In this document: positions 8,440 through 42,099 of the stretch, piece after piece
Numbering within the stretch: the stretch's first letter is position 1
Layout of the letters: every line of letters starts with the position of its first letter
DNA from: Chloroflexota bacterium
GTDB lineage: Bacteria > Chloroflexota > Dehalococcoidia > Lucifugimonadales > UBA3495
Direction of reading: 5' to 3'
Assembly: GCA_028873965.1 (NCBI GenBank)
Contig: JAPPMU010000041.1
Location: 51,374-115,373, forward strand
Length of the DNA stretch: 64,000 nt
Program-made: the position numbers and the translations under genes
The notes under the pieces: generated by a model
Told to the model about the DNA's origin: nothing
The model's database searches: none
The model's input: the letters and a program-made list of their open reading frames with translations, nothing else

Positions 8440-8520
8440 CAACCGCATGAACTCCCTCGCGCACCCTATGAACAGCCCGGCCATCCCCTCGCCTGACGTG
8501 GTGTCCACCACGGGCGATTC

Positions 8521-8630
8521 CGTCATTCCCGCGTGTCATCCCGTCATTCCCGCGTGTCATCCCGTCATTCCTGCGTGTCATCCCGTCATTCCTGCGTGTC
8601 ATCCCGTCATTCCTGCGAAAGCAGGAATCC
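8521..8630. repeat. 21-bp tandem repeat (four units plus a REP-like terminus)
   Basis: cgtcattcc(c/t)gcgtgtcatcc repeats at 8521, 8542, 8563, 8584; the fifth unit becomes cgtcattcctgcgaaagcaggaatcc. Confidence 0.92.
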
Positions 8631-8664: not shown

Positions 8665-9423
8665 ATGACTCCTTACATCGGCATCACCGGCTTCTGCTCG
8701 CGCAGCGAGGTCGACGCGGTCCTCGCGGCCCTTCCGGCCAATCCCAACCGCCAGTTGATGTGCGGCGCCCTGCTCAGCAATGCCCTGCTGTCCGGCGAGC
8801 CCAGCGACGCCCCAAACCGCTGCCCGGCGCCGGATGCCATAGCCGGCATTTTCTCCGACGACCCCCGCTGTCTGAACCTCGTCCACTACCGCCCGCCCCC
8901 GGGCGCGAACCTGGCGGACGCTCTGGCCCGTGCCACCGAGGTCGGAGGCCCGCATTGCCACGGGGTCCAGATCAACGCCACCCGCGGCGCTCCGTGGCCT
9001 GACCTTGACGCCCTCGCGGCTTACCGCGAGTGCTGCCGTCCCTCCCGCATCGTGTTCCAGGCCGGACGCGAGGCGATGGAATCGGTCAACCACCGGCCCG
9101 ACGAACTGGCCCGGCGCTGCGCCACCTATTCCGGCCTGGTAACCGACGTGCTGGTTGACGCCTCCGAAGGTCTCGGGCTGTCGCTCGATGCCGCCCGCTC
9201 CGCCGACTACCTGGAAGCCCTTCGCGCCGCCGCCCCGGAGCTGGGACTGGTGGTCGCCGGCGGCCTCCACTCCGGCAACATCTCCGAACTCCTGTCGCCC
9301 CTGCTGCCCGAATGGTCCGGCGTCAGCATCGACGCCGAGGGCCGCCTCCGCGACGCCGACGACCACCTCAACACCTCCGCCGCCATCGCCTATCTGCAGG
9401 CGGCGTCGCAGTTGCTCGATTGA
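8665..9423 (+). CDS. Divergent TIM-barrel protein, phosphoribosylanthranilate isomerase (TrpF)-like
   Basis: ATG at 8665; TDVLVDASEGLGLSLD...LGLVVAGGLHSGNISELL...WSGVSIDAEGRLRDADDHLN resembles the C-terminal TrpF phosphate-binding half. Confidence 0.45.
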   Translation: MTPYIGITGFCSRSEVDAVLAALPANPNRQLMCGALLSNALLSGEPSDAPNRCPAPDAIAGIFSDDPRCLNLVHYRPPPGANLADALARATEVGGPHCHGVQINATRGAPWPDLDALAAYRECCRPSRIVFQAGREAMESVNHRPDELARRCATYSGLVTDVLVDASEGLGLSLDAARSADYLEALRAAAPELGLVVAGGLHSGNISELLSPLLPEWSGVSIDAEGRLRDADDHLNTSAAIAYLQAASQLLD

Positions 9424-9435
9424 CCCGGAGTCGCC

Positions 9436-10119
9436 GTGGCCACGCTGACAGTGAAGCGTATCGTCTGCCTCGCCAATTCCCGTAAAATGGCGGGCCGCTG
9501 CGTTGCCGGCAAGGAAATTTCGGAGGACGGCCACCCGGGCAACTGGATCCGTCCGGTCAGCAACCGCGAAATCGAATCTATCTCGGAACGGGAAAGATGC
9601 TACGCCGACGGCAACGACCCGGAACTGCTGGACATAATCGAAGTGCCTCTCCTCAGCGCCAAACCCAAGGACTACCAACAGGAAAATTGGCTGCTGGACC
9701 CCTCCCGCCAATGGCGCAAGGTGGGCCGATTGTCCTGGGATGACCTTCCGAGTTTGGCTGACCCGGAAACCCCTTTGTGGACCAACGGATTCACCTCCCG
9801 CGGCGGTAAAAACGACCAGGTGCCGGTAGACGTCGCCGCCGGACACGACACCTCACTGCGGCTGATAAGAGTGGAAGATCTGACCGTCATAGTCTCGGAG
9901 CCGTCCCGCCCCAGCGCCAATTTCTCCATCCTCCGGGGTCGTTTCACCCACTGCAACGAAACCTACTGCTTTCGCATCACCGACCCGGTCAGCGAGAACG
10001 GATCGATCAACCTCCCCTACGCGGAATACCCGGTGGGCGAGCGCTACCTCACAGTCAGTCTCGGTGAGCCCTTCGAAGGCCACGCGTACAAGCTCATCGC
10101 CGCCATCATCAGGCCCTGA
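9436..10119 (+). CDS. Dual OB-fold (DuOB-like) domain protein
   Basis: GTG start; VKRIVCLANSRKMAGRCVAGKEISEDGHPGNWIRPVSNRE matches my recollection of the dual-OB family found beside DUF488. Confidence 0.6.
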   Translation: MATLTVKRIVCLANSRKMAGRCVAGKEISEDGHPGNWIRPVSNREIESISERERCYADGNDPELLDIIEVPLLSAKPKDYQQENWLLDPSRQWRKVGRLSWDDLPSLADPETPLWTNGFTSRGGKNDQVPVDVAAGHDTSLRLIRVEDLTVIVSEPSRPSANFSILRGRFTHCNETYCFRITDPVSENGSINLPYAEYPVGERYLTVSLGEPFEGHAYKLIAAIIRP

Positions 10120-10133
10120 CGGAGGACCTCCGT

Positions 10134-10769
10134 TTGAACCAGACTAAGCCAATGGTGCTCACCGTCGGACACTCCAACCACCCGCCGGAGGCATTCATCA
10201 ATTTGCTGGTCCGACACGGCGTCGACGAGATCATAGACGTCCGGTCCGCACCATACAGCCGCTACGCGTCCCAGTTCAATCATGAGGGTATCCAGCGGAT
10301 GCTCGACGATATTGGCATCGGTTACGCGTACCTAGGCGGCGAGCTGGGCGGCCGCCCCGCTGATCGTTCGTGCTACGACGCGGATGGCCGCGTTCGATAT
10401 GATCGGGTCGCAGCAATCGATTCATTCGACGACGCATTGCGCCGAGTTACCCGGGTGGCGGATGAAAACCGCGTCGCTCTCCTGTGCACCGAAAAGGAAC
10501 CGCTGGAATGCCACCGCACCTTGCTGGTGGCGCGAGCCTTGGCTGAACGTGGCGTCGATGTCGCCCACATTCAGGGCGATGGTTCCCTGGAGGACCACGA
10601 TGACGCCATGAGCCGTCTGCTCGACCTGCACAAGCTGCCCCCGCACGGCGACATGTTCCGCACCCGAGCCGATGTCATCGCCGAAGCCCTTGACCGGCAA
10701 GCCCGCAAATTCGCCTATGTTGAGACCAACCTGCCTCCTGTGATTGACGGATGGGAGTCCGCTCCGTGA
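10134..10769 (+). CDS. DUF488 family protein (copy 1)
   Basis: VLTVGHSNHPPEAFINLLVRHGVDEIIDVRSAPYSR...ALLCTEKEPLECHRTLLVARAL. Confidence 0.88.
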   Translation: MNQTKPMVLTVGHSNHPPEAFINLLVRHGVDEIIDVRSAPYSRYASQFNHEGIQRMLDDIGIGYAYLGGELGGRPADRSCYDADGRVRYDRVAAIDSFDDALRRVTRVADENRVALLCTEKEPLECHRTLLVARALAERGVDVAHIQGDGSLEDHDDAMSRLLDLHKLPPHGDMFRTRADVIAEALDRQARKFAYVETNLPPVIDGWESAP

Positions 10770-11203
10770 AGCTCTACACCATCGGTTTCACCCGCAAATC
10801 CGCGGCCGAATTCTTCGGCTTGCTCCGCGAGTCTGGTGCCAAACGGGTTGTCGACGTGCGTCTGCGCAACACCTCTGGGTTGGCCGGGTTCTCGAAAAAG
10901 AGCGACCTGCCGTGGTTCCTGCGCGAACTCTGCGGCATGGACTACGTGCACCTGCCCCGCCTGTCTCCCACCGACGCGCTGCTGGACGGCTACCGGAAAC
11001 GCGACATAACGTGGGATGAATACGTGCCGCAATTCCACTCCATAATCGAACGCCGGCTCATCCGGGCCGCCATCCCGCAGGATATAATCGCCGACAGTTG
11101 CCTGCTGTGCAGCGAGGACCGGCCCGAAAGGTGCCACCGCCGGCTCATCGCCGAGCACTTGCAGCAGCATTGGGGCAATGTAGAAATAATCCATCTGGTC
11201 TGA
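10766..11203 (+). CDS. DUF488 family protein (copy 2)
   Basis: GTGA overlap with copy 1 (GTG at 10766; ORF track start 10751); VKLYTIGFTRKSAAEFFGLL...VVDVRLRN...CLLCSEDRPERCHRRLIAEHL. Confidence 0.88.
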   Translation: MKLYTIGFTRKSAAEFFGLLRESGAKRVVDVRLRNTSGLAGFSKKSDLPWFLRELCGMDYVHLPRLSPTDALLDGYRKRDITWDEYVPQFHSIIERRLIRAAIPQDIIADSCLLCSEDRPERCHRRLIAEHLQQHWGNVEIIHLV

Positions 11204-42090: not shown

Positions 42091-42099
42091 CTAATCGTC

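Follow-up and report, generated by a model that had tools for sequence, protein, structure and literature searches.

The window, the whole 64,000-nucleotide stretch of Chloroflexota DNA analysed here, carries a three-gene cassette that is real, widely conserved and horizontally mobile, in which a DuOB (dual OB) gene is followed by two DUF488 genes, DUF488a and DUF488b. We consider it moderately likely that this is a mobile three-gene nucleic-acid defence cassette of the PADLOC PDC-M45 type. DuOB matched model PDC-M45A (E=1.3e-82), DUF488a matched PDC-M45B (E=6.2e-73) and DUF488b matched PDC-M45C (E=1.3e-61), with the PDC-M45C protein adjacent to the PDC-M45B protein on the same strand at a 4-bp overlap. 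With all three models matched, the window adds one more example of a defence candidate that is catalogued but unvalidated. A preliminary description had observed the triple correctly yet offered it as an undescribed system, which it is not: it is already PADLOC candidate PDC-M45, and both DuOB and DUF488-N3a are already in Pfam. PADLOC candidates of the PDC class were derived by guilt-by-embedding, and most are unvalidated (PMC12988326). In the literature searched, we found neither PDC-M45 by name nor an antiphage or biochemical test of the DuOB-DUF488 family. The features at the locus are as follows.

8520..8617, no strand: 21-bp tandem repeat, 4.7 copies (Tandem Repeats Finder), upstream of the left flank gene, outside the system
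8607..8630, no strand: palindromic dispersed repeat TCATTCCTGCGAAAGCAGGAATCC (pattern scan), overlapping the tandem array, outside the system
8665..9423, + strand: left flank gene, first read as a TrpF-like barrel; conserved host gene with no family match, outside the system
9436..10119, + strand: DuOB protein, 227 aa, PDC-M45A; GTG start, GGAG at 9427-9430
10134..10769, + strand: DUF488a, 211 aa, PDC-M45B; TTG start, GGAGG at 10121-10125
10766..11203, + strand: DUF488b, 145 aa from GTG, PDC-M45C; the alternative ATG at 10751 would give 150 aa
11269..12219, + strand: right flank gene of the phosphotriesterase family (PF02126, E=5.8e-65), outside the system

The four plus-strand ORFs between 8665 and 11203 are present as first described, and the GTGA overlap of the last two is exact (4 bp; GTG 10766-10768, TGA 10767-10769). 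The TrpF-like gene is separated from DuOB by 12 bp, and DuOB from DUF488a by 14 bp. DUF488b has a second possible start, the in-frame ATG at 10751 upstream of GTG 10766; the GTG is most likely the one used, because the relatives L023 and L025 begin at the equivalent position. Against genus relatives, the approximate dN/dS was 0.06-0.18 where computable, with dS near saturation; together with the Pfam matches given below, this speaks against a chance pattern.

The DuOB protein matched Pfam PF22557 over its full length (profile 1-210) with E=2.6e-63 and 214 bits against a curated cut-off of 27. Its AlphaFold model (pLDDT 94.7) is mainly beta, and the best PDB matches were CST, HIN-200 (p202/IFI16), LEF-3, SSB and RPA, with E 8e-4 and TM about 0.3. 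Given these modest values, what the model supports is limited to a DNA-binding architecture of OB type. The presence of two OB-type beta barrels agrees at the fold level, at low TM, the PDB matches being tandem-OB proteins, and a viral fold library returned weak LEF-3/SSB matches only. The proposal that 9436-10119 encodes a dual-OB protein is thus borne out by both the Pfam match and the OB-type fold of the predicted structure. Searches by sequence found no solved relative of DuOB or DUF488a. The residues of DuOB that are invariant in the homologue alignment include W37, R39-S42, R44, Q81, E83, N84, W93, W115 and K219, suggesting a specific ligand, not loose binding. We regard it as highly likely that DuOB binds nucleic acid.

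Both DUF488 proteins matched Pfam PF04343 well above the cut-off of 22 bits (DUF488a, E=9.1e-21, 75 bits; DUF488b, E=5.2e-18, 66 bits), and DUF488b also matched DUF488-N3a (PF22751, E=6.9e-10). The shared motif and the upstream DVR segment that had been pointed out in these two ORFs are real. The motif reads C118-T-E-K-E-P-L-E-C126-H127-R128 in DUF488a and C120-S-E-D-R-P-E-R-C128-H129-R130 in DUF488b (150-aa numbering), and D-V-R occupies positions 35-37 in both. Invariant residues comprise C118, E120 and C126-H127-R128 of DUF488a in 45 homologues, and C117, C120, E122 and C128-H129-R130 of DUF488b (150-aa numbering) in 43. Because T10, G12, D35, R37, the Cys, the Glu and the Cys-His-Arg are kept without exception in the homologue alignments of both paralogues, both appear to be active enzymes. 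In the DUF488a model (pLDDT 91.6), C118 ends strand 114-118 and H127-R128 opens helix 127-138, a predicted layout that resembles the Cys...Arg loop of Cys-phosphatases. The best PDB match of this model was a plant phosphatase, which is weak (E=4.4e-3, TM about 0.3), and archaeal PTPs were also listed. DUF488a and DUF488b separate fully in a joint tree (support 1.0 for the b side), and in the preferred reading they are two ancient, non-redundant paralogues. The residue invariance and the tree therefore agree with the earlier view of two paralogous subunits that are both apparently catalytic.

The window's own genome holds one DuOB gene and only the two DUF488 genes of the triple, and no inactive DUF488-N3i partner was found in it. 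DuOB occurs in 14 of 60 relatives, this genome counted, and in 45 of 400 genomes of the phylum; in the DuOB-bearing relatives all three genes are present and in unchanged order, except in G005, where the locus is interrupted. Our wider set comprised 57 DuOB loci, 55 from 84,980 species genomes and 2 from IMG/VR. DuOB-DUF488a-DUF488b was found in the same order and on the same strand in 47/57, a count that takes in one interrupted locus (L099, on the contig of G005) plus two whose DUF488a is split. The remainder included four loci without DUF488b, one with DuOB alone (L094), and others that are contig-end cuts or fragments. Some of the loci are closely related, among them L102/L103, L067/L073 and those of the genus, which leaves fewer than 57 independent cases. 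The triple spans Chloroflexota, Latescibacterota, Nitrospirota, Acidobacteriota, Gemmatimonadota, Spirochaetia, Pseudomonadota and others, and the co-occurrence of DuOB with two DUF488 genes, which the preliminary description had made decisive for its proposal, is thus conserved across phyla. Among 14 well-known control genomes, DUF488 was present in 6 and DuOB in 0. DuOB hence predicts DUF488, not the reverse, as DUF488 is common without DuOB in the control genomes; the locus set, for which DuOB was the query, leaves DUF488 pairs without DuOB outside its view. The distance matrices for DuOB, DUF488a and DUF488b are correlated (r 0.59-0.61; 0.46-0.70 when the genus is left out), a level reached in 0/2000 permutations. 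Taken together, DuOB, DUF488a and DUF488b very probably act as one unit.

Two DuOB queries against INPHARED phages returned no phage-borne copies, and E. coli yielded only DUF4326-like fragments at 69-76% identity. The two IMG/VR matches are apparently near-identical, and one of them lies beside integrase and recombinase genes, suggesting that it is probably an integrated element. Two tandem DuOB genes were observed in L057:4705-6201 and L077:9237-10762, where DUF488a was matched in two pieces, and tandem DuOB matches also occurred in the phylum genomes G176, G280 and G365.

The preliminary description had counted the gene at 8665-9423 into the run as a TrpF-like barrel. We found no support for this fold: Pfam gave nothing meaningful even at E up to 10, NCBIfam gave no match, and a profile search of the PDB gave no TIM barrel. 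The usual order in the genus is AMP-ligase, TrpF-like gene, triple and phosphotriesterase, and the phosphotriesterase gene keeps its position in genus relatives as a syntenic border of the site. In G003 (L017), L018, L023 and L025 the triple is located elsewhere, without the TrpF-like gene beside it, and G003 has this gene at a place separate from the triple. A clean empty site was not found in the genus; instead, three relatives have partial deletions. The G001 site contains the TrpF-like gene, an XRE/HigA-like gene, DUF488b and the phosphotriesterase gene, with DuOB and DUF488a gone, whereas G006 has lost DuOB and kept both DUF488 genes, and G005 has a DuOB cut short or interrupted and lacks most of DUF488a. 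The TrpF-like gene as a fourth component was therefore rejected, as it shows synteny without the triple, is kept where the triple is broken and has no family match. By its synteny it is a host neighbour outside the system, and the four genes do not form one run: in distant genomes the triple has no such gene beside it. DuOB of G012 is directly preceded by a 3' fragment of the TrpF-like gene (L024:8499-8646), a full copy also being present, a pattern that looks like cassette exchange by recombination. On the far side of the flank gene, the 21-bp tandem array merges with the TCATTCCTGCGAAAGCAGGAATCC repeat over 8520-8630; the palindrome has 2 copies in the window, the second a pattern match at 42098, and was also seen in L026 and L029.

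The window copy is flanked by the AMP-ligase, the TrpF-like gene, the phosphotriesterase and a luciferase-like monooxygenase, so that with these metabolic neighbours the cassette lies here outside a defence island. In some relatives the settings are of a defence type. As many PADLOC protein models are permissive, only strong, adjacent neighbours were counted. In L059, L065 and L071 the triple sits, with gaps of 3-12 bp, inside an operon of Hma (HmaABC), a DUF499-centred BREX-related system (PMC8565338, PMC12839542), between HmaB (DNA methylase) and HmaC (HEPN-DUF499 ATPase); in L065 the presence of HmaA upstream was confirmed, and in L071 HmaA was matched at 82%. HmaB and HmaC fragments flank the triple on both sides in L082 and L095, while no HmaA, HmaB or HmaC was detected when neighbours of the window copy were tested. 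In 8 loci from several phyla (L067, L068, L072, L073, L075, L079, L080 and L089), the gene immediately before DuOB encodes a Schlafen AlbA_2-HATPase protein of about 420 aa. Type I restriction-modification (R-M) methylase and specificity genes precede the triple in L066, and a type I restriction gene follows it in L061. On plasmids, the triple adjoins CBASS with an HTH-ImmA/IrrE pair in one case, lies between Csx16/Cas1 and Csm6 (type III CRISPR genes) in another, and precedes an SNF2 protein in a further one. We conclude that a defence role for the cassette is likely. Of the nucleic-acid repair, defence or stress unit first envisaged, the conserved unit stands and relatives supply the defence-type settings; the window copy itself remains among metabolic genes.

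These metabolic surroundings, the purifying selection and the resemblance of DuOB to SSB/RPA/CST-type DNA-binding proteins would also suit a DNA-repair or housekeeping module, in which DuOB would locate damaged DNA ends for the DUF488 enzymes to clean up, to the benefit of the host. We consider this unlikely. The distribution is too patchy for housekeeping (14/60 relatives, 45/400 in the phylum), the cassette decays in close relatives, and it turns up repeatedly on plasmids, within Hma operons and next to genes of R-M, CBASS and CRISPR systems. The cassette's position close against the HmaB gene, seen in three to five loci, together with the invariant Cys pairs or triplets (C118 and C126 in DUF488a; C117, C120 and C128 in DUF488b), raises instead the idea of a DNA-modification or thiol-transfer accessory, whose rhodanese-like cysteines would put sulfur or another group on DNA, marking self and complementing the neighbouring methylases. 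However, most copies have no methylase nearby and the neighbour tallies shown contain no sulfur-donor or Dnd/Ssp partner, making this quite improbable.

Regulators accompany some copies. HTH and ImmA/IrrE genes lie upstream in L105 and L102/L103, and several genus relatives have an upstream gene of the HigA-like XRE type. The latter was seen at L044:6503-6808, L045:7010-7645, L047:9544-9813, L051:9675-9950 and L099:9661-9960, the gene in L045 being longer than the others and possibly encoding a truncated HTH-ImmA/IrrE protein. Such genes would fit a selfish or plasmid-stability module of toxin-antitoxin-like design, with an XRE/HigA-like or ImmA/IrrE regulator over a toxic enzyme pair, as would a 4.2-kb plasmid with hardly any other cargo. 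Yet most loci lack a regulator, the window included, where no XRE/HigA-like gene was found upstream; no small antitoxin is constant across loci, and G001 keeps DUF488b alone while G006 keeps DUF488a and DUF488b without DuOB. We therefore assign this explanation a very low probability.

Under the preferred reading as a defence cassette, DuOB would serve as the recognition subunit that binds DNA through its two OB-type domains and recruits DUF488a and DUF488b, most likely to ends, gaps or lesions of invading DNA, where the two enzymes would carry out phosphate or sugar chemistry. We infer that DuOB binds DNA, that the three proteins form a complex working jointly at DNA ends, and that the outcome is antiphage. 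That the DUF488 enzymes perform phosphate or sugar chemistry on DNA ends or nucleotides is a tentative assignment, which we hold to be a real possibility. Against a defence reading stand the position of the window copy among metabolic genes and the broken cassettes of G001, G005 and G006; the structural matches of the DuOB and DUF488a models are weak and point to no substrate.

Natural part swaps were also found. On plasmids of Acinetobacter and enterobacteria, DuOB is accompanied by a b-type DUF488 and by a DUF4326 gene that replaces DUF488a, and this variant is located near NotI R-M.

L107:5995-7658, L108:8334-10022 and L109:2370-4028: DuOB-DUF488b-DUF4326 on small Klebsiella/Acinetobacter plasmids

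The 4,167-bp Klebsiella plasmid L109 has no large ORF besides these three genes. A third DUF488 type on the plasmids was considered and rejected, as their protein is clearly b-type (E about 1e-62 versus about 1e-13 for the a model). Among the Schlafen-associated loci, 4/8 lack DUF488b. Judged from these gene sets, DuOB, which was also the search query, is the constant part and the cysteine enzymes are exchangeable. DuOB may accordingly be pictured as the recognition hub of a modular defence family with interchangeable enzymes, namely DUF488a plus DUF488b, DUF488b plus DUF4326, or DUF488a alone behind Schlafen/AlbA; each combination would perform a different undescribed reaction at invader DNA ends, with HTH-ImmA/IrrE or HigA-like regulators as optional additions. 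We regard this extension as doubtful, though conceivable.

In summary, the DuOB-DUF488 family is widespread, mobile and sited in defence operons, and a biochemical function for it was not found in the literature searched, nor were two or more of DUF488, DUF4326 and RapZ found in one publication. The partners, the invariant residues and the two natural variants, one in which DUF4326 replaces DUF488a and one lacking DUF488b, turn an anonymous database candidate into one that is ready for cloning and mutagenesis, and work on the cassette would probe for the first time the function of active DUF488 enzymes.

Among known systems, the tandem OB architecture of the HIN-200 sensors (IFI16, p202) and of CST/RPA, the top structural matches, is like that of the DuOB model; at TM about 0.3 and about 10% identity this is a fold analogy rather than evidence of homology. 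The DUF488 proteins share their domain and the Cys/CHR loop with the RapZ-C-DUF488-DUF4326 clade of the rhodanese-phosphatase superfamily, to which the plasmid relatives add DUF4326. Burroughs and Aravind (2023) reportedly defined this clade and are said to have predicted DNA-end processing in conflict systems for it. Hma is the host operon of the cassette in L059, L065 and L071; the cassette is an insert there, not a component, and most copies lie apart from Hma. With PDC-M45, each protein is a strong match to its component model and no difference was seen at the family level. Our survey goes beyond that catalogue entry with the plasmid DuOB-DUF488b-DUF4326 variant and the Schlafen-associated loci without DUF488b.
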